Shown piece by piece: positions 1,608 to 13,896 of a stretch of 23,258 nucleotides of DNA (positions are counted from its first letter, which is position 1; every line of letters begins with the position of its first letter). The stretch is from a virus. The notes below the pieces were generated by a model, which did not search any database, had not been told where the DNA came from, and was given only the letters and a program-made list of their open reading frames with translations. The stretch lies in IMG/VR virus record IMGVR_UViG_3300022074_000392, positions 1-23,258 of that record. One strand, written 5' to 3'. The translations under genes and the position numbers were made by a program.

Positions 1608-2591
1608 TTATGCTCTGTAAACAGCAACGAGCCTCAAATCTGCGTTGAGATTAGTTGCTACGCCTGAAGTGGTACCTTGAATGGCTCCACCATCAGCTTG
1701 TTTGTAAAATGCAAGATTTGTTTGATTTTTAAGAGCCAACCATTGCGTATTAGCATCAGAAGTCCAGAACCCACCATTGTAGGTAAAAAAGGCTCCGTAT
1801 TGGTGGTCAATGCTACCGCCAGTGATAACTGTGAATGGCAACCCCCCTACATAGATGTGGTCACCGTTCTCAGTGCCGCTGTTGGCTCGTAAATAAATAG
1901 AACAAACAACTAATGACCCAATTTTTACATAGGTGCCTTGTTGGACGGAATATCCGGGTGATGTAAGCCCCATCTGAAAATGTGGCGTAAACGTGCCAAT
2001 TTCATAATCGTCGAGGATTTCATGAGTTACAGTGCCGCTGGAATTGGCAGTCGCTGAGAAATCAATCCCGTACCCATTATCAAGCACCAAGTTACCGGCT
2101 GAAAGGTCAAGGCCACCGCTGTCAAGGATGCGTAACCGTTCTGAGCCACCCGCCGACAAAATGATATGGTTCGTGCCTGCAATTTGTGAATTTGCACTGG
2201 GAAAACTAAAAGTAGTATTTCCAGAAACACCCGCAGCCCTTTGTATAATCAAGGCATCACTAGACGACGGTTGATTAATGACTGTTTTGGCCGACATGCT
2301 CGTGACGCCGATGCCCACATTTTCTGAACTATCAATTGTGATGGCGTTGGCATTGGCATTGTCATCTATGCCCGGAGATGTAAACGCGCCGCCGACCGTC
2401 GCCGCGCCAGTTACGTCCAGCGCATCAATCGCATCCGTTCCATTCGCGAAAGCGCCAAGCTGCTTAGTCAATTCTCGCATTGAGTTATTGACGGCGCTGG
2501 GAAGCATGCCCTCCGCAATGGAGATGCCGCCGATGTCGGTGTTGTTCCCGGCGGTGGTGCCGTCGTAGTCGGCGATTTTATCTTTCGACAT
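1608..2591 (-). CDS. Tail fibre-like protein B (shared N-terminal domain)
   Basis: Protein of 327 residues. The N-terminal ~45 residues (DYDGTTAGNNTDIGG, then EGMLPSAVNNSMREL) closely match the N-terminus of the upstream fibre, so both probably dock to the same virion site. The middle is repeat-poor beta-structure with short glycine turns, typical of trimeric fibres (LRILDSGGLDLSAGNLVLDN). The C-terminal third (about 190-327) begins YEIGTFTPHFQ and looks like a receptor-binding or head domain seen in phage fibres. It lacks the S74 chaperone present in the upstream gene. The start is coupled by TAATG. Base composition looks more AT-rich than the head genes, common for exchanged fibre tips. Confidence 0.8.
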   Translation of the reverse strand: MSKDKIADYDGTTAGNNTDIGGISIAEGMLPSAVNNSMRELTKQLGAFANGTDAIDALDVTGAATVGGAFTSPGIDDNANANAITIDSSENVGIGVTSMSAKTVINQPSSSDALIIQRAAGVSGNTTFSFPSANSQIAGTNHIILSAGGSERLRILDSGGLDLSAGNLVLDNGYGIDFSATANSSGTVTHEILDDYEIGTFTPHFQMGLTSPGYSVQQGTYVKIGSLVVCSIYLRANSGTENGDHIYVGGLPFTVITGGSIDHQYGAFFTYNGGFWTSDANTQWLALKNQTNLAFYKQADGGAIQGTTSGVATNLNADLRLVAVYRA

Positions 2592-3949
2592 TATGCGTTC
2601 TCCAGTGCGGTCAGTCGTGTTTCAATGTCACCAAGCCGCTGCTCAGTAGCTGCGCCAATAAACGCCAGCAGTTCAGCGTAGCGCACTCCAAGACGGGTGC
2701 GTTCTGTTGCGCCATCTGGTGCTTCGTCGGCTGTCTGATATGTGTCGATGCGGGTGTAAGCGTCCTGCGCCTCAATGCCAGCTTCCTCGTCAGCCTCAAC
2801 AGCCGCCACCTCTGTGCTAGCTTCCCACCAAGTATCGCTGCACCAGAACGCATAGTTGCTTGCGTCTAAGCCAGCGTCAGTCATTGCTGCTTGCACTTCC
2901 TGTGCAATCACACCGGCATGTGTACGGGCTGCATCACCTTTGGCTGCAACTTTGTCGTTCCACTTGAAAGTCTTGAACAGCTTGCTGATAGCTTTTGCTG
3001 CTGTAATTTCGGCAGTGGTCAGGCTGGCAATCTGCTGTTTTTCGTTTTGGTCGGATGTTTGAATTGTGCCGTTGGTAGCAAAAACATCGTCAAATCTAGC
3101 CCCGCCAGCACCTAAATCAATAGTGTTATCACTCTGTGCGCCGCCCCTACGAGGCACAATAACATCTGTTCCGAAAGTCAAACCAGAGTGATTGGTGCTA
3201 GTGCAATCTATACTGAGATTATCACCATCAGTTACTTTAAACTCTGAAATCTTTGCAGTGTCTTTATAGAGTTGTACTATTGTGCCATCACTTGATTTTC
3301 TTACACAAATCAGCGGACCATTACCATCAGCCGTAGCCCACAGACTACCGTTGCCTTTCGCCTCGACGCCTACACTTTGATAATTCGTGGCGGTCTTGCC
3401 CACCATTAATATGCCGCTGCTGTCGATGGTCATGCGGGTTGCTGCGGCGGTACCCACTGTCAGTTTCTGTGTGCTTTGATTGTAATTTAAATAACCGTCA
3501 TATTCTCCGCTTCCAGACGTAGCGTCAGAAAAGTACAAACTGCCCGATGACGACGCACCGCTGCGAATTGTAATGCCAGCATGATCTGTATCTGCAACAG
3601 TTAAGGTGTCGGCGTAATCAGCAAACCCTTCTGTAGTCGTGCCAATCATTACATTGCCCGACGCAATAATCGTATCGCCAGTACCATCAGGGTCTAGCGT
3701 GATGTCACCATTCGTGTCAGTGCTTGAGATGGTGTTGCCGTCGATGCGTATGTTGTCGACGTTAAGCTGATCTGCCGCTGGCGTCTCAAGCGCCACCGCG
3801 CCGGTGCTGACGTTCTTCAGGTCGGTCATGATTTCACGCAGCGCGTTATTGATCCCACTCGCGGCGCAGCCTTCGGATATGTCAACCGACTGCACGTCGG
3901 TGTTGTTGCCGGACGTTGCGTCGTAATCGCGGATCGAGTTTTTGGCCAT
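2591..3949 (-). CDS. Tail fibre/spike protein A with C-terminal S74 intramolecular chaperone
   Basis: Protein of 452 residues. Residues 1-45 form the docking domain shared with the downstream fibre. Residues ~60-290 are beta-rich fibre shaft with GxIxLDPDGTGD-like and (L)MVGKTxTNY turns typical of marine phage fibres. From about 299 the S74 chaperone begins: Ser299-Asp300 ... Lys304 (consensus SDxxxK), then RTHAGVIAQEV (342-352), followed by a C-terminal helix ending RLGDIETRLTALENA that would trimerise. In characterised S74 proteins the chaperone drives trimer folding and cuts itself off at that serine; here this is inferred. SD (AAGGA) precedes the ATG; a 34-base gap separates it from the upstream gene. 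Confidence 0.85.
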   Translation of the reverse strand: MAKNSIRDYDATSGNNTDVQSVDISEGCAASGINNALREIMTDLKNVSTGAVALETPAADQLNVDNIRIDGNTISSTDTNGDITLDPDGTGDTIIASGNVMIGTTTEGFADYADTLTVADTDHAGITIRSGASSSGSLYFSDATSGSGEYDGYLNYNQSTQKLTVGTAAATRMTIDSSGILMVGKTATNYQSVGVEAKGNGSLWATADGNGPLICVRKSSDGTIVQLYKDTAKISEFKVTDGDNLSIDCTSTNHSGLTFGTDVIVPRRGGAQSDNTIDLGAGGARFDDVFATNGTIQTSDQNEKQQIASLTTAEITAAKAISKLFKTFKWNDKVAAKGDAARTHAGVIAQEVQAAMTDAGLDASNYAFWCSDTWWEASTEVAAVEADEEAGIEAQDAYTRIDTYQTADEAPDGATERTRLGVRYAELLAFIGAATEQRLGDIETRLTALENA

Positions 3950-3983: not shown

Positions 3984-6047
3984 TCACATATCGAATGGGT
4001 TGGTTACACCCTGTGGGGCAGAAGGCGCAGACGGCGCATCCGGCGACGGCTCAGACGGGATACCCGGCCCCGACATACTGTCCCTAGCCATAGACATGCC
4101 GACGCCAGAGGCGTTGTTCAAGGCGTTTGCAACGAGAATAAGGTTTCTCTCGTTGAAGGCCCCCTGTCCTTTGCCGACAGCAATGTCCAGAAGCATGTCA
4201 ACCGAACCCTCATTAGTCATTACGTCCGCCAGCTTCCTGACGTTAGCATTTGAAAGTTGCCTGCTTGTCGCGTCCGAAAGAGCGCCCAAAACTCGCCACG
4301 GCGCTGCCGCAAACTGCAACAGTCCCGGCGCACCCAAGCTACCGACAAGTTCTTTGGCGCTTTCTTTCGCCGCAGTGTCTGAGCCGGTATATATGGCCCT
4401 AGACGCACCCTCCATAACGGTCAGAAGGTTTTCCATAGCCTTCATCTGATCGGGGCTTAATGCAGCTTGCAGGCGCTTGTAACCATCACCCGCGCCAAAC
4501 TGAGACCAGAACCGGGCTTGCGGCATCGCGCCGCGCAAGTCCGGCCTTCCCAACTCGCCTATACGGGGCTTGGACGCCTTCTCCCAGCTTTGCTCAAGAG
4601 CGCCCCGGACAAAGTTGTTCCATATATCCTGCCCACCATCAACCTTTAGAATGTTGTCTCGCGCGGCCTTGATTGCTGACGGGCTGGAATTGGTTAAAAA
4701 CCTCGCTCCCATAAATTCAAAATCTTTGTTTGTCGCCTTTGCCAGCGTCGGCAAGAGGCCGCCCTCAACATCATCGATGGGGCGGCTCAAGTCGCCCCAG
4801 ATTTTTCGTGCTGCGGCATACTCTGGGACTTGCCCATCCATTTCTTTAAGCAGGTTCCCCTGAACCTCTTTCAAGCGCATCGCCTCTTTGTTTCTGCCCG
4901 CCCTGCTGGCCGCGCCAATAAAGTCGTCCAGCAGTTCTTTTACGTTGTCCTGAACATACTCAAGGCTGACGCCTTCTTTTGACTTGTACCCAATGACCTT
5001 GCCCTCTTTGTTCGTCACTGGGTCGGCAATGTACTTAAGAGCCTGACGGAACTTGCCAGCAAGCCGAGGGTTTTTGTTAATTGCTTGCTCAAGGGACTTA
5101 ATTGTCCCGCTCACATCTATTGATGCACCCGCCTCAAACGCATCATCATAGGCTGGCTTGCCAGCACGCGCCCTAGCCATCGCCAAGTCAACCATAGACT
5201 GTTCGGCGGCCCCCGACATTTCCGCTCCTGCGGCCTCTCTGGACGTGAAAGTGGGGCCAATGTCTTCAAGACCCTGCGACAAAGCCCGACCAACCTCTGC
5301 CCCACGCTCCGCCGCAAACCGAGACATTGTCTCCCCGGTCCTTGGGTCGCCAGCTAAAGTCTTCTGCACAGCAATCATGTCGGCGTTGTTGGTCAATTCG
5401 GCAGCGCTGATCTTGATGTTTGTGCCATATGTCTTGTTGACCGCATCAAGGGTTCCCTGCAAAGCCTGAGACGCACTTTGACGGCCCTGATCCATAGCCG
5501 TTTTAAATTGTTTCGCCGCCGCAGTTACTGCGGCGCGGGTTAGCCCCTTGCCTATCAACATGCCAGCCAAAGACGCCGCCAAGTCAACGCCGCCTTCAAA
5601 TACAATCCGCCCCGCACTTACTTCCTGACCTGCGAGACCCTTTGCTATGTATTCCTTAGCAGCCTGACCAGTCATAGCGCCAGCAGTGCCGCCAACGGCT
5701 ATTCCCGCAGGCCCAAACGGGATGGAGGCAATACCGCCAACTGTCCCGCCGACAGCAGGGAACGACGGCCCTAAACCTTTTAAAAACCCACGCAAGGGTC
5801 CGGGTGAGACCGCCTGCGGTGGCAGGCCGGTGCCGGGCCTAGAGTATGCAATCTGTCCCTGTTGTATGCCAAACCTGTCTAGGGGTATACCCATTTGCTG
5901 CGAGTAGTAGCGCATCCGCGCGCGGGGGTCTTGGATAAGAGACGCGGCAGCGACGGTGCCGGGAGACGCGGCACGCTCAGTCCCCGTCTCAATTACTGGG
6001 ACACCCGACCCGGTCAACAAATTAAAAGGGCTTACAGCGTTGCTCAT
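3984..6047 (-). CDS. Large internal virion / DNA-ejection-like protein (687 aa)
   Basis: The ATG at 6047 overlaps the upstream TGA (ATGA) and has AGGAG eight bases before it; an upstream ATG at 6068 lacks this. Residues ~90-170 hold a glycine/alanine hydrophobic stretch (VGGTVGGIASIPFGPAG, AGIAVGGTAGAMTGQAAK, SLAGMLIGKGLTRAAVTAA), which resembles membrane-active segments of ejection proteins. The rest (200-690) is mostly helical and charged, with no enzyme motif seen. The Pro/Ser-rich C-terminus (PGIPSEPSPDAPSAPSAP) is low complexity. It is the third of three consecutive large genes, a layout like P22 gp7/gp20/gp16. The role of passing the cell envelope during DNA entry is inferred from size, composition and order. 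Confidence 0.6.
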   Translation of the reverse strand: MSNAVSPFNLLTGSGVPVIETGTERAASPGTVAAASLIQDPRARMRYYSQQMGIPLDRFGIQQGQIAYSRPGTGLPPQAVSPGPLRGFLKGLGPSFPAVGGTVGGIASIPFGPAGIAVGGTAGAMTGQAAKEYIAKGLAGQEVSAGRIVFEGGVDLAASLAGMLIGKGLTRAAVTAAAKQFKTAMDQGRQSASQALQGTLDAVNKTYGTNIKISAAELTNNADMIAVQKTLAGDPRTGETMSRFAAERGAEVGRALSQGLEDIGPTFTSREAAGAEMSGAAEQSMVDLAMARARAGKPAYDDAFEAGASIDVSGTIKSLEQAINKNPRLAGKFRQALKYIADPVTNKEGKVIGYKSKEGVSLEYVQDNVKELLDDFIGAASRAGRNKEAMRLKEVQGNLLKEMDGQVPEYAAARKIWGDLSRPIDDVEGGLLPTLAKATNKDFEFMGARFLTNSSPSAIKAARDNILKVDGGQDIWNNFVRGALEQSWEKASKPRIGELGRPDLRGAMPQARFWSQFGAGDGYKRLQAALSPDQMKAMENLLTVMEGASRAIYTGSDTAAKESAKELVGSLGAPGLLQFAAAPWRVLGALSDATSRQLSNANVRKLADVMTNEGSVDMLLDIAVGKGQGAFNERNLILVANALNNASGVGMSMARDSMSGPGIPSEPSPDAPSAPSAPQGVTNPFDM

Positions 6048-7441
6048 GATCTTGGCTCCTTGCTCCACATATCAATCGCCGTGGCTTCGTCTACGCCCTG
6101 CCCTACAAGTGAATTGACGTACTCGTGTATGTAGAGAGTTTTGCGCCCCCTCTTGATTGAAATTGGGTAGGTCTTTGCATCTGCTGCGGTGATTTTGTTT
6201 TCCTTCAAAATCTTTTCCGACCTGAACTTTGCCGCAGTCAACGTGCCAGTCATGTTGCGGAGTTTCACCTCATACTGAATAGGGCTGTCTCCACCAAACG
6301 GGTTGTTGGCCGTACCGGCGAAAGGTATCCAAGCCTTAGCCCTTGCGTATTCTCCCTGCGAAACAGCAGCGCCAGAAAGCCTGAGAAGCTGCTCTGAGAA
6401 TGTTTGAGCCGCACTTGCCATAAACTGATTGTACTCCATAGCCGCTTCGACGTCCTCAATAGATGGTTCAAACCCCATCTTCGACGCAATGTTTGTCGTG
6501 ATGTTCTGCCACCGCCCCGGCGTTGTCAAAAATTCTGGCTGAAAGTTGGCGGCGGCTTGATCAAGCGTCGCAAGCGTTGCGTCAATTTCGGCGATTGCAG
6601 TCTGCTGGTCTTTTATCACGCCTTTTTGAAGCGCCCCAGTTCCGTCTGTTACGCCCGTTGTGATGGTCGTCTCGCCCGTTGGGCTTGTCGTTATTTGCAT
6701 ACCCGGCGTTAGCCTTGGCAGCTTTGGGTCGCCAATCGACATTAGCCTGAACCCGCCGGGGGCGGTCGGATCGGCAACCGAAATGTTTTGCTGCGTTGCG
6801 CCGGGCATACCCTCAACGCCCGTCTGAACAAAAGTCGGCTTCTGAGGCGTCACAGGCGCACCCGGCAGAGGAATAAAGGTTGCGCGCCCGAAAACGTCTT
6901 GACCCATAGTGCCGGTCACGCCGCCCGAAGTTATCGTCTGCGGCTTCTCTGGCGCGCCAGCCGGACCGTAGTCAATGTCATATTTTTGGGTTGCAGGGTT
7001 GAACGCTTTGAGACGCATAGTTCTTGAGGCAGGGTCGTATATCTGCTTGGTTTCTGGGGGTTTGCCAGAGCGCTCAAATGCAGCCTTGGCCGCTGCTGTG
7101 GGATCAAGTTGCGCGTATAAAGACGGAAGAGCAGATGGCTTCGCAATAGCTATCTGGCCCATAATCTGAGACCGCCTGCGGGCCTCTGCCGCCTCAGTGC
7201 CTAGCTTTGCAAGGTTTGCCTCGGCAGTCTTAAATTGCAAGTCTTCAAGTTTTTTTGCTTGCCGCGCCTTCAGGGCGGCGTCATACGCCTGCACGCCCAT
7301 AGCGCCAGCGCGGCCAATAGTTTGGCCAAGAGATGTTGGCTGAAGGCTTGGGCCTCCCGCCTCCAAAAGCCCCATCGCCATAGCTAAATTGGCGCGGGTT
7401 CTTGGGTCGTCCATACCTGTACCGAGAAGACCTTTAATCAT
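6044..7441 (-). CDS. Internal virion / ejection-like protein (465 aa)
   Basis: Starts MIKGLLGTGMDDPRTRANLAM with an AGGGG Shine-Dalgarno six bases before ATG 7441. Residues 1-95 are helical (MAMGLLEAGGPSLQP, then a coil rich in K, A, E and Q: AKKLEDLQFKTAEANLAKLG). Residues ~130-270 are Pro/Gly/Thr-rich with beta character (PGMQITTSPTGETTITTG). The C-terminal ~180 residues are helical again (EDVEAAMEYNQFMASAAQTF). The N-terminal pattern is familiar from marine phage genes just after tail adaptor genes and usually carries no function name. I place it as a virion protein by position between two similar large proteins. The last four bases overlap the next gene. Confidence 0.6.
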   Translation of the reverse strand: MIKGLLGTGMDDPRTRANLAMAMGLLEAGGPSLQPTSLGQTIGRAGAMGVQAYDAALKARQAKKLEDLQFKTAEANLAKLGTEAAEARRRSQIMGQIAIAKPSALPSLYAQLDPTAAAKAAFERSGKPPETKQIYDPASRTMRLKAFNPATQKYDIDYGPAGAPEKPQTITSGGVTGTMGQDVFGRATFIPLPGAPVTPQKPTFVQTGVEGMPGATQQNISVADPTAPGGFRLMSIGDPKLPRLTPGMQITTSPTGETTITTGVTDGTGALQKGVIKDQQTAIAEIDATLATLDQAAANFQPEFLTTPGRWQNITTNIASKMGFEPSIEDVEAAMEYNQFMASAAQTFSEQLLRLSGAAVSQGEYARAKAWIPFAGTANNPFGGDSPIQYEVKLRNMTGTLTAAKFRSEKILKENKITAADAKTYPISIKRGRKTLYIHEYVNSLVGQGVDEATAIDMWSKEPRS

Positions 7442-8565: not shown

Positions 8566-8883
8566 TCACCCGACAATAAGGTAGGCGAACTCCTGTGTGT
8601 GGCCGTGGTTCTTGTGTCCAATCTTCATCGTCCCGTCAGTTGATGTCGATTTGATAAACGGCTGATGATGCTCCGGCGACCCATTGATCGCCGTAAAAAA
8701 CACCACGCTTTCCTTTGAGAAGCGCGGGTCTGTCTTTGTTGTCTCGGTAACGCTGGCAGACAGCGTCACATAATCCCAACTATTCAGTCCGCCGTTAATC
8801 GTGCGGTTAAGTAGTTCGGCGATCTCTCGCGTTGTGGCAAGGATCGGGTTGAGGATGCGGAAGTTACTAACGCGCGTTGTCAT
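8566..8883 (-). CDS. Small tail-region protein of unknown function (105 aa)
   Basis: Begins at ATG 8883, overlapping the upstream TGA (ATGA). The protein opens with TTRVSNFRILNPILATTREI and a helix (AELLNRTINGGLNSWDYV), then strands (TLSASVTETTKT; ESVVFFTAING) and ends with a His/Gly-rich stretch (KIGHKNHGHTQEFAYLIVG). The size and the strand-rich profile fit a small connector, tail-tip or fibre-adaptor subunit. I do not recognise a named family. It lies between the large tail protein and the GNAT-like gene with 7 bases to the next start, so it is almost certainly co-translated. Confidence 0.7.
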   Translation of the reverse strand: MTTRVSNFRILNPILATTREIAELLNRTINGGLNSWDYVTLSASVTETTKTDPRFSKESVVFFTAINGSPEHHQPFIKSTSTDGTMKIGHKNHGHTQEFAYLIVG

Positions 8884-10340
8884 CGCCTGCCCACCTGCCT
8901 CGCCTCGACGTCCATACCCTGCGCGAATGACCACTGCCCGCTCAGGTTCATGCGCGCGCGGTGATACCGGCCCTGCGCCCTGAACGGCGCGAAGCCGTCA
9001 GTGTTTGGCGACTGCGCCGTCGTGAATGTCGTTGTGTCGGAGTGCAGGCCGCGCGTGCCGATCTGCATCGTGACGCTGCCGCCCTCGTGATACGGATAGA
9101 CGCGCGTGATCATATTGAACTTGCCAGTCGCCAGCCCCGCCTCAGCCGTCTCAATGGTTGCGGCCAGCGGGTCGCCGGTGAAGGTGTGTATTTTGTTTCC
9201 GACTGCGCCGCCGAAGATGAACTGCCCTCCCTTGTACAGCGCACTGTCAAGCGACGCAGGCAGCGCGTCGATGCTGGTGTTGATCGTGTCTAGCTGCTCC
9301 AGCGTGTAGGCTGGCGTAAACATCGGCGCAATCAGACCGGCCTGCACGTTGGCGGTAGACCAGCGCCCGATTGCGTAGTTGTAGATCAGCAGCTTGTCGG
9401 GCTTGGCGTCGGTGCTATTGTTTGACACATAGGACCAGACCGCGATCTGGTTCTGCGGGTCGACGCTTGATGTCATCCGGTCCTTGTGCGCGATATTGAA
9501 GTCGTCGAAGAAGAACTTGTCCACCTTCTCGGCCCCGATGTTCTGAGACCGCTGGCCGTCAAACGCATAGAAGCCGTCATCGCTCAGATAGAAGACAGTG
9601 TGGCCAATGTTGCAGATCGACCCCGGCACCTGACAGCCGCGCGCCGTCTCGACCTTGTCGAACTGGAAGATCAGCGGCGGGCCGGAGTAGGTGGCGCGGA
9701 CAATCGCGCGCTCCATCAGGATCGTGCAGTATTCACCGCCGACCATCCCGGTAATGTTGCCAGCGTCAGGTATGTCTTGGAAGTCGGACTGCTCGGTGCC
9801 AGCGGTCCAGCTTGTGATGTCGTTGAAGCCTGACCACTGGACGCGGTACGGCAGGCGGTTGCCCGACCCATCCTCGACGTTGCCCAGCCACACGAAATCG
9901 CGCACCACCGCAATGAAGTCAGCGTCCGGCGGTGAGCCAGCCAGATCGGCGAAGAGGCTGCTGGTGCCGAGCGTGTAGCGCTGTGGCGGCACACCAATGC
10001 CGCCGACTGCGATCACGTCAGTCCCAAACTGCACGAACCGCCACCGCTCTTCCGGCGCAGTCAATGTGTAGTTGCCGGACTTCGAGATATTGTCGAGGCT
10101 GCTGTCACTGCTGTCGAATTGATACAGCTTTGTGGTGTCGCCCGCAAACAGCTTGACGTTTCCGCTGTTATCCTTTGCAGCAAACACGCCATTTATGTCT
10201 GCGTCTGCCGCGCCGGAGTACGCAACGAACTCAGGCAGGCTGCGATAACCGCCAGCCGCAGGGATGACGTTCTCGGCTTTTGTGACGCCGGGGTTCGAGT
10301 AATCGGGCTGATCTGGTAGGAACTCGCCAAACTGTATCAT
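8880..10340 (-). CDS. Tail nozzle/hub-like structural protein (486 aa)
   Basis: ATG 10340 overlaps the upstream TGA (ATGA); a TTG 12 bases earlier is less likely. The start IQFGEFLPDQPDYSNPGVT followed by KAENVIPAAGGYRSLPEF is a hallmark of a widespread podophage tail protein. The body is almost all beta-strand with recurring aromatic turns (VFAAKDNSGNVKLFAGDTTK; VFYLSDDGFYAFDGQRSQN; LLIYNYAIGRWSTANVQAG), consistent with a propeller fold such as that of P22 gp10-type tail nozzle subunits. The C-terminal ~90 residues form another beta domain (ITRVYPYHEGGSVTMQIGTR). Family identity is from pattern memory. It follows the connector genes, the expected place for a nozzle. Confidence 0.7.
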   Translation of the reverse strand: MIQFGEFLPDQPDYSNPGVTKAENVIPAAGGYRSLPEFVAYSGAADADINGVFAAKDNSGNVKLFAGDTTKLYQFDSSDSSLDNISKSGNYTLTAPEERWRFVQFGTDVIAVGGIGVPPQRYTLGTSSLFADLAGSPPDADFIAVVRDFVWLGNVEDGSGNRLPYRVQWSGFNDITSWTAGTEQSDFQDIPDAGNITGMVGGEYCTILMERAIVRATYSGPPLIFQFDKVETARGCQVPGSICNIGHTVFYLSDDGFYAFDGQRSQNIGAEKVDKFFFDDFNIAHKDRMTSSVDPQNQIAVWSYVSNNSTDAKPDKLLIYNYAIGRWSTANVQAGLIAPMFTPAYTLEQLDTINTSIDALPASLDSALYKGGQFIFGGAVGNKIHTFTGDPLAATIETAEAGLATGKFNMITRVYPYHEGGSVTMQIGTRGLHSDTTTFTTAQSPNTDGFAPFRAQGRYHRARMNLSGQWSFAQGMDVEARQVGRR

Positions 10341-12658: not shown

Positions 12659-13896
12659 TTAGGAGCCGTTCAGATCAAGGATCATGCTATGCGCTTTGGG
12701 CGCAGTTGGCTTGAGCGCCCACTCGCACAGGATGTGCGTGTCGGTTGCGTCGCCAGTCTTGGCCAAATCTTCCTCAAGGAAGTTACGACCGTTCAGCGTG
12801 CAGAGCGACACAAAGTCTGGGTCGATCAGGAAGATGCGGTCGTTACCAAGCTGGCGAGACGGAGTTGCCTCAACAGTACCGAAGTCGCCGAGGAACACCG
12901 AAGTCGAACCGACATAGGTGACTTCCTTGGCAGCGGTCATGTTCACGTCATTGCTGACGAGGTTGCCGGAAGCAGCCAAATCCGAGAAATTGGCTTTATT
13001 CCCAGCCGACATGCACATCATCCGAGGGTTGCCGCCGTCGGTCCATGCGTCCTGCTGCGCGTCCTCAATGAGGGCAAGCGTCAGTGCGCGGTCAGTACCG
13101 CCGGTTACTGCGTCAGTACCGTCGCCAGTAGCGAAAGCGCCGTCGCCAGCACCAACAGAGCCGTTGGTGATCCAGCATGACAGAGACGCCGACTTGCGTG
13201 GCTCAGAAGAAGAGCGAGCAACGTCTGTGTCGCCAATCATCTTTTCGATGTCGCGACGCAACTCAAGGGCCTTACAATTTGTTACCGCCGACCTGTTTAT
13301 GATCGACTTCTACGGCTTGTAGTCAGGTTATACCGTAGTTCAGACTATATCTTCACTTTCGTGTTGGGCGCTCGTGGGCAGATTATTCTTTCGTCACCGC
13401 CTAGTCGTTGAACCTTCACCAGCCCTCAGCTTTCGCTTCCATCTGGCGCTTGGCTGCTGATTACCCGCCTCCGGGCTTCCCAGCAATTCACCCAATTTTT
13501 TTCCTGAACCAGTCAGACAGCAATCTGATTTAGAACAGGGGTGCCTTCGGAGAAAGAGTTAAGCACCTTCTGGTAGTTGTGTTCGCGCTCGCGACCTGCC
13601 GTATCTACAGCATCGAGGGTCCCACTCGTAGCGAAAACCTTTTTGCTGATCTGGTGATAATTTCCAACACGGCTGGTCGGCGTGGCCGCCGCAGTCGCTG
13701 TGTCTGCACCTTCGTTGTGATAGTTCGTGGCGCTGGCTGAAGCCAATTCCTGAACCTGCCACTCGGTGAAGATACCGTTGGAAGTTTCCTTCTTAACGTT
13801 TGAAAATATTGGCGTTTCAGCAGGGTCGATGCGATAAATTACATCGGCAAGCTGTTCACGTTCGCCGATTGCTGCGGCGGTTGCGAAGGTTGTCAT
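12659..13896 (-). CDS. Major capsid protein, split by a group I intron: join of 12659-13274 and 13562-13896
   Basis: The gene is in two exons (minus strand). Exon 1 is 13896-13562 (335 nt), exon 2 is 13274-12659 (616 nt); together 951 nt = 316 residues plus stop, with Leu112 split CT|T. The joined protein reads through NYQKVLKALELRRDIEK in one frame, as in SU10-type (DUF5309-like) HK97-fold capsid proteins. Exon 1 carries the usual start (IGEREQLADVIYRIDPAETP and TEWQVQELASASATNYHNEG); exon 2 carries QDAWTDGGNPRMMCMSAGNK and a beta-rich C-terminus (SVFLGDFGTVEATPSRQLGN). Unspliced RNA would give only a 127-residue product ending at 13513. SD (AGGAAAAGG) precedes ATG 13896. The cut falls in a conserved segment, as expected for a homing element. 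Confidence 0.92.
13275..13561 (-). ncRNA. Group I self-splicing intron in the capsid gene (287 nt, no internal ORF)
   Basis: The 5' exon end GGTGCT (13567-13562) pairs fully with the guide GGCACC (13545-13540), giving P1 with the diagnostic U-G at the splice site. P2: TCAGA/TCTGA (13528-13513). P3: TTGGGTG (13495-13489) with CGCCCAA (13370-13364). P4: TTGCTG (13486-13481) with CAGCAG (13459-13454). P5: CCCG/CGGG. Core strands are canonical: AATTGCTGGGAA (P), AATCAGCAGCCAAGC (Q), GTTCAACGACTA (R), AAGATATAGTC (S). P7: GACTA (13406-13402) with TAGTC (13347-13343). P8: CAC-GAAA-GTG (13363-13354). P9: CTACGG/CCGTAG (13338-13310). Extra sequence between P7 and P3' suggests P7.1, as in subgroup IA (T4 td-like). 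The intron ends in G (13275). It is too small for a homing endonuclease gene. Confidence 0.95.

Follow-up and report, generated by a model that had tools for sequence, protein, structure and literature searches.

We found that the major capsid protein gene in a virus sequence of 23,258 nt (IMG/VR virus record IMGVR_UViG_3300022074_000392, positions 1 to 23,258; hereafter the window, in whose numbering coordinates are given) is interrupted by what is almost certainly a complete, endonuclease-less group I intron able to splice. In the capsid gene family to which it belongs, introns occupy six sites (A to F; the window's is site B), and one and the same intron body is found at sites B and D behind two different guides. 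Introns in phage capsid genes are already in print; the part that is new to us is the population picture, with six sites and one body re-aimed. That the body occurs at a second site with another guide is invisible from the single sequence that was available for the initial annotation of the window. The interest of the system is raised by this natural pair together with the six sites in one essential gene, and it bears on the open question of how endonuclease-less group I introns reach new sites.

Splice anatomy of the window intron

The capsid gene and its intron are on the minus strand of the window (Table 1). The initial annotation had placed the intron at 13275-13561, giving no strand, and both the match to the Rfam model RF00028 and the joined reading frame bear this position out. 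In a covariance search of the whole window, RF00028 matched 13537-13321 on the minus strand over all 253 model positions (61.7 bits, E 1.1e-13), which is above the gathering score of 50 and thus answers the proposed covariance-model check in favour of an intron; at gathering score the window was otherwise without any Rfam match. The P1 helix that had been suggested, with U-G at the 5' splice site, was found as GGUGCU and GGCACC with all six bases paired, and the same six of six pairs with U.G at the splice site were present in all 34 mapped introns (33 loci), as was the terminal G that the annotation had also named. The six-base guides differ between the sites, there being four guides for four sites (A GUGCGG, B GGCACC, C GCGCAA, D GGUUCC). 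The P10 pairing amounted to 3/6 in the window copy and two copies like it and to 4 or 5 of 6 in other B copies; elsewhere it was 4/6 in D, 5/6 in A, 1/6 in phage C72C1 and 2/6 in a hybrid intron of locus L098. If exon 1 is read unspliced, translation reaches a stop codon whose last base is nt 49 of the intron. As for homing, an endonuclease gene is absent from the inside of the window intron, as had been stated, and there is no room for one because the intron is 287 nt long with a stop at nt 47-49.

Table 1. Exons, intron and structural elements in the window, and intron sites in the capsid gene family
Feature	Position	Strand	Length	Remarks
Exon 1, major capsid protein gene	13562-13896	-	335 nt	codons 1-111 and two bases of codon 112; PF17236 matches up to residue 111 and phrog_1328 up to 110, both resuming in exon 2
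Group I intron	13275-13561	-	287 nt	begins UAACUC, terminal G; RF00028 61.7 bits; without endonuclease gene
Exon 2, major capsid protein gene, stop included	12659-13274	-		first bases UAAGG, possible P10 3' partner
P1, 5' exon half GGUGCU	13562-13567	-		last base U at splice site; 6/6 pairs with guide, U.G
Internal guide sequence GGCACC	13540-13545	-		intron nt 17-22; site-D copies have GGUUCC instead
In-frame stop TGA ending exon 1 translation	13513-13515	-		P3 start 18 nt further on
P3 5' strand UUGGGUG	13489-13495	-		structure alignment
P3 3' strand CGCCCAA	13364-13370	-		structure alignment
P7 5' strand GACUA	13402-13406	-		covariance model and structure alignment
P7 3' strand UAGUC	13343-13347	-		covariance model and structure alignment
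Extra hairpin after P7 5' strand, here named P7.1	13377-13401	-		one pair with compensatory change among variants
P8 hairpin CAC-GAAA-GUG	13354-13363	-		structure alignment
P9 hairpin	13310-13338	-		structure alignment
Second 3' hairpin, here named P9.x	13289-13305	-		two pairs with compensatory changes
Site A	after capsid-gene nt 68		intron 210 nt
Site B	after capsid-gene nt 335		intron 284-287 nt	the window's site
Site C	after capsid-gene nt 322		intron 251 nt	phage C72C1
Site D	after capsid-gene nt 279		intron 283-285 nt
Site E	after capsid-gene nt 54			L267, distant relative with about 40% identical capsid protein; boundaries by eye
Site F	after capsid-gene nt 260			L266, which has site A too; boundaries by eye

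Intron structure and covariation

The structure of the body was named from the fold of the window intron and scored on 10 aligned variants, which are B and D copies. All of its 65 pairs were paired throughout (650/650 cells), and the core helices, of which the initial annotation had listed P7, P8 and P9, were paired from P3 to P9 in 10 of 10 variants. Changes on both sides were seen in five pairs of this set, located in P5, P7.1 and the 3' hairpin P9.x, while P3, P4, P7 and P8 were invariant and give the structure neither support nor opposition. The percentage paired, the number of double-changed cells and the covariation score were as high in none of 500 shuffles and the number of double-changed pairs in 2 of 500; for the fifth measure, further pair types, all 500 shuffles of the 10-variant alignment were as high. 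Slid versions of the structure paired at 20-41%, compared with 100% for the unslid one.

The fold energy was only mildly better than that of shuffles, with z values of -1.84 for the window intron, -1.55 for a site-A intron and -2.53 for the C72C1 intron, and as these are weak, stand-alone fold energy was dropped as proof of an intron. Because fold energy is weakly distinctive, the case for the intron rests on the covariance model, the covariation and the relatives. Subgroup IA is marked by extra P7.1 and P7.2 hairpins between P7 and P3; one hairpin lies there in the window intron, for which the model used was the general RF00028.

At sites A to D, the in-frame stop that a ribosome would meet first is placed shortly before P3, which starts 16-18 nt further on (in A and C the P3 start was set by sequence analogy). 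This placement could keep ribosomes off the intron core. From the anatomy we propose that, after transcription, the guide GGCACC would pair with the six bases at the end of exon 1, a cut after the U would be made by exogenous guanosine, and the exons would be joined at the terminal G with codon 112 restored. A ribosome translating exon 1 would halt at the observed stop and may in this way allow the core to fold unhindered. The idea of the annotation that virion production is gated by splicing is speculation.

The interrupted capsid gene

When the exons are joined without the insert, codon 112 is restored and a frame of 316 codons without internal stop is obtained, in agreement with the 316-residue SU10-type capsid protein that had been predicted; the two exons share a reading frame only once the insert is removed. 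The joined protein matches PF17236 over profile positions 11-291 of 292 (E 9.2e-73), each exon alone matching its own part, and phrog_1328 with E 1.5e-76, and with a profile built from 13 relatives, almost the whole length of the solved capsid chain 9ny2_A is matched. By these profile matches, the interrupted gene is one that encodes an SU10-type major capsid protein. The other window genes include an SU10-type portal, an SU10-type adaptor and an Sf6-like small terminase. A protein with a Peptidase_S74 chaperone domain (PF13884), probably a tail protein, is encoded at 2591-3949 (minus), and two large frames at 3984-6068 and 6044-7441 (both minus) have relatives only in the record of L083 among 11 other genomes compared.

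Among the relatives, L002 and L003 have proteins 99% identical to that of the window and an empty site without the 287 bases (GTGCT-GAAGG, compared with GTGCT-intron-TAAGG in the window), which is what the comparison with uninterrupted relatives suggested in the initial annotation was to look for. Of 375 relatives found when viral contigs were scanned with the joined protein, the best 80 were kept, and these comprised 69 uninterrupted genes and 11 interrupted at another place; the ratio is not a frequency, because the ranking favours uninterrupted genes. In bacterial genomes a first scan detected no capsid relative and a second detected one (40% identity, Comamonas testosteroni), both scans being seeded by short peptide patterns that can miss relatives. 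Compared with L161, the empty allele closest to it, the window has 28 synonymous and 1 nonsynonymous codon differences in codons 1-111, and 10 and 1 in codons 113-316. In eight other pairs synonymous differences outnumbered nonsynonymous ones in both exons, the least strict exon 2 being that of L084 compared with L083 (68 and 21). Judged by these substitutions, both exons are under purifying selection.

It could be argued that an inert insertion broke the capsid gene and that the contig represents a dead or chimeric genome. There are indeed stops in the unspliced frame, the window record is a metagenomic contig and the related record L098 looks chimeric. Yet the insert has all the parts of a group I intron and shows covariation, it is complete at the identical place in 11 other records, and purifying selection is seen on both exons, which leaves a broken gene hardly credible. 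We also consider it extremely improbable that no splicing occurs and that two separate proteins come together as a split capsid protein. Each part is an open frame that has a possible start, and the C72C1 record lists two 'major head protein' genes, but the splice-site pairing and the terminal G are kept in 34/34 mapped introns and the core helices in 10/10 aligned ones. Moreover, the break falls at residues L112/K113, which are invariant in 13 aligned proteins, and the exon-1 frame enters guide and P2 sequence for 15 codons that are partly different between copies. A spliced capsid gene is thus the reading we follow.

Six intron sites in one gene family

Searches with a 22-base core pattern gave 16 further records and with a 30-base pattern 20, 16 of which were common to both. 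Sites A to D were mapped in 33 loci with 34 introns, from 32 distinct records (L227 and L071 are the same record). The unspliced frame contains a stop in all 33 mapped loci, and after intron removal 32 of the 33 are open, the exception being L098. Introns of L228 and L230 are cut off by the contig end. In two later scans site A was found also in L254, L259 and L266, together with the new sites E and F.

The RF00028 gathering score was reached by all five later sources (L254, L259, L266, L267 and the psbA intron of L260). When whole records with mapped introns were searched, 17/17 matched, with one match each and two in that of L098. In a mixed set of 49 records the 14 that matched were those with full capsid introns; neither the L228 and L230 records nor any record with an uninterrupted capsid gene in this set gave a match. 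In L266 (5818-7241) one capsid gene contains group I introns at both A and F; the two are different, and each scores above the gathering score. In L098 (3584-4968, minus) a site-A intron is accompanied by a hybrid second intron, its 5' half like D and its 3' half like B; 57 nt of exon between B and D are missing there, and the joined frame has a stop. We make no claim that L098 is a recombinant, assembly through the identical body being equally likely.

Some capsid genes in the phage group of the window are annotated as two genes. An example is phage C72C1 (OQ984150.1, 8530-9731; L082), where two head protein genes are annotated along with three small antisense genes that lie between these two or overlap them, at the place of the 251-nt group I intron. 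A literature search for phage C72C1 found nothing related.

One intron body with two guides

The target sites B and D are 56 nt apart in the capsid gene. The bodies of the introns at the two sites are 97-98% identical on average, compared with host gene identities of 77% among B carriers, 72% between B and D carriers and 79% among D carriers. When 12 B copies were compared with 6 D copies, fixed differences were found only at columns 1, 16, 19 and 20 of 289, and the D copy of L086 and the B copy of L083 are identical beyond column 20 except for two added A near the 3' end. Because the fixed differences are confined to columns 1-20, the two kinds differ in the 5' end and not in the body. These first 20 alignment columns contain the guide for each target (GGCACC or GGUUCC). 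The B guide makes 6/6 pairs with its own target and 4/6 with that of D, and the D guide 6/6 with its own and 5/6 with that of B.

As a pattern, then, one body would have been re-aimed between the two sites via a swap of the 5' end of about 20 nt. Tentatively, and with more doubt than confidence, we suggest that the first 20 nt or so (P1 guide and P10 segment) act as a targeting cassette that can be exchanged while the ribozyme body stays the same. If true, this would give introns lacking an endonuclease a means of being directed to new sites in one essential gene of a phage population. The capsid gene offers a natural set for such work, with one body, two sites, two guides and empty alleles, all short enough for plasmid tests.

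Probable movement between capsid genes

After identical spliced genes were merged, 227 aligned loci gave 130 alleles, L098, L228, L230 and L211 being left out. These were 105 empty alleles, 10 with B, 9 with A, 5 with D and 1 with C, in a set that the intron searches had enriched. A quick tree, from which the columns close to the sites were left out, required 16 changes for intron presence, 8 for B, 7 for A and 4 for D; counted only against other intron groups, B required 5, A 6 and D 4. Clustering went beyond that of shuffles only for B (11 of 500 as low, compared with 79 and 160).

In the exon flanks, the identity of diverged B pairs (n = 39) rises from 72% overall to 90% over the 35 nt that precede the site and 91% over the 30 nt that follow it, compared with 77% on both sides in empty pairs of like divergence (n = 4,879, of which 139 reach the B mean after the site). 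The D pairs (n = 9) are 94% identical in 270-300 compared with 75%, a value that 36 of 4,222 empty pairs reach. The pairs in these flank comparisons share sequences and so are not independent. At site A the comparison fails, the A pairs being closer overall than their matched empties (79% and 74%), and in the set of 130 alleles no private exon flank was found at that site. A synonymous 3' flank, TAAGGCNCTTGAGTT, which extends to +15, is present in 10/10 B alleles and 0/120 other alleles. The D allele L086 is the only non-B allele with the first T of this flank, the remainder being absent; we do not claim this T as the scar of a lost B intron, since the next bases are GAGCTT and in occupied alleles GAGTT.

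The pattern is that of mobile introns, with a patchy distribution, near-identical introns on diverged hosts and co-converted flanks. Because synonymous exon flanks are shared and the distribution is patchy, these sequences indicate that the intron family has recently moved horizontally between the capsid genes of related phages. By analogy with T4 introns, for which short co-conversion has been described (PMC2988022, as far as accessible), we infer from the flanks DNA-level homing or recombination with short co-conversion, in which the family would replace short exon flanks as it moves.

Endonucleases and routes to new sites

A domain search covered the records found before L254, L259, L266 and L267. 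In it HNH_3 was found in 0/49 records, LAGLIDADG_3 in 0/48 and HNH above cut-off in 0/48, and GIY-YIG in 4/49, all four without a capsid intron; many of the searched records are fragments. The GIY-YIG domains lie in long open frames (338-458 aa) in the records of L035, L041, L125 and L210, which have uninterrupted capsid genes only. A weak HNH match in L093 (9e-4, below the curated cut-off) was rejected, no clear endonuclease being seen in the 123-aa frame; this frame had relatives only in L086 and L095 among the loci then compared, and none in the window.

In the capsid gene of the distant relative L267, an intron core is 81% identical to the D intron over 131 nt. An HNH protein of 223 residues (phrog_8446, E 5e-25; PF01844, 23.6 bits with a cut-off of 21.4) is encoded directly 5' of its P3. 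The reading frame, at about 8741-9900 (minus), has its stop codon abutting the P3 strand of this intron, a relative of the window intron. The simplest history would be that an endonuclease was lost from the P1-P2 region.

How the introns reached their flanks and sites can be explained in several ways. The shared flanks at B and D could reflect convergent selection for P1 and P10 pairing instead of co-conversion, as P1 draws on the six bases at the end of exon 1 and P10 on a few at the start of exon 2, and 45 of the 120 alleles without a B intron already pair 6/6 with the B guide. This is unlikely when the private B flank runs past the stretch tested for P10 and the raised identity extends 30-35 nt on both sides, so that we continue with co-conversion. 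The introns could be mobilised in trans by an endonuclease whose gene lies at another place in the phages or in a co-infecting phage, as trans homing is known in T4-like phages (PMC2988022, as far as accessible) and the related core in L267 does carry an endonuclease in the same gene. The results of the domain search speak against it, as do the absence of the L267 endonuclease from the other 37 of 38 intron-bearing records searched and the lack, among frames of at least 60 residues, of any protein common to all 7 intron-bearing genomes and missing from 5 intron-free ones, several of these genomes being incomplete. We hold such help in trans to be a real possibility, if somewhat short of an even chance. 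The second site could also have been reached with no DNA break, if the free intron RNA was reverse-spliced into it and then reverse-transcribed, a route which would suit endonuclease-less introns with one body at two sites of one gene and the partial pairing of each guide with the other's target. According to the accessible part of a review, this route is without direct experimental evidence and related introns at two rDNA locations are the best circumstantial evidence for it (PMC3984707). The guide would be kept in reverse splicing, yet the first 20 columns differ, and although the route is possible we lean against it.

Comparison with known phage introns

In mycobacteriophage LittleE, splicing of the capsid gene has been shown by RT-PCR and protein sequence (PMC3706429; this and the other reports compared here are cited from their accessible parts). 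The LittleE intron resembles the present ones in that it interrupts a major capsid gene and is probably of group I, with exon 1 ending in U and the intron in G, but it is an 819-bp insertion with an endonuclease reading frame, at one site and in another host group. The same report describes a tail intron of BAKA and Optimus that is likewise compact (265 bp), without endonuclease and in a virion gene. As 156 bp of it are almost common to it and the capsid intron of LittleE, it was already known that related phages can have related introns at different sites; in contrast to our case, those related copies are in two different genes. In crAss-like phages of the Delta and Zeta groups, group I introns have recurrently invaded the major capsid gene, in one case splitting it into five fragments (PMC7886860), whereas these are large gut phages whose introns were found via endonuclease domains. 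In the accessible part of that paper we saw no case of a single body at a pair of sites with a guide for each.

Three similar group I introns are present in one virion structural gene of phage Twort, the tail tube gene orf142 (printed as orf182 in PMC3073962; PMC11878797). All of the Twort copies are in one genome and exon skipping has been reported for them, whereas the similar copies described here come from different phages and occupy different sites. Jug phages have very many compact group I introns, averaging about 206 nt, and RNA reads support the splicing of 37 of 76 (PMC12363816); they differ in being huge gut phages, and the capsid gene is not named among the interrupted genes in the accessible part of the report. 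Our literature search, with most subscription papers being beyond reach, turned up no recognisable report of an intron in an SU10-type capsid gene.

Outside capsid genes, the window intron is 79% identical over 58 nt to the psbA intron of cyanophage S-PM2, and the site-A intron 77-78% over 163 nt of intron to the psbA introns of L257 and L260. The host gene differs, as psbA encodes photosystem D1 (Photo_RC by Pfam in L260 and by eye in L257), and the resemblance suggests that the capsid and psbA introns are of common origin. L257 and L260 are IMG/VR records of 64 and 111 kb, and in L260 the psbA intron has a LAGLIDADG reading frame downstream (PF14528, above cut-off).
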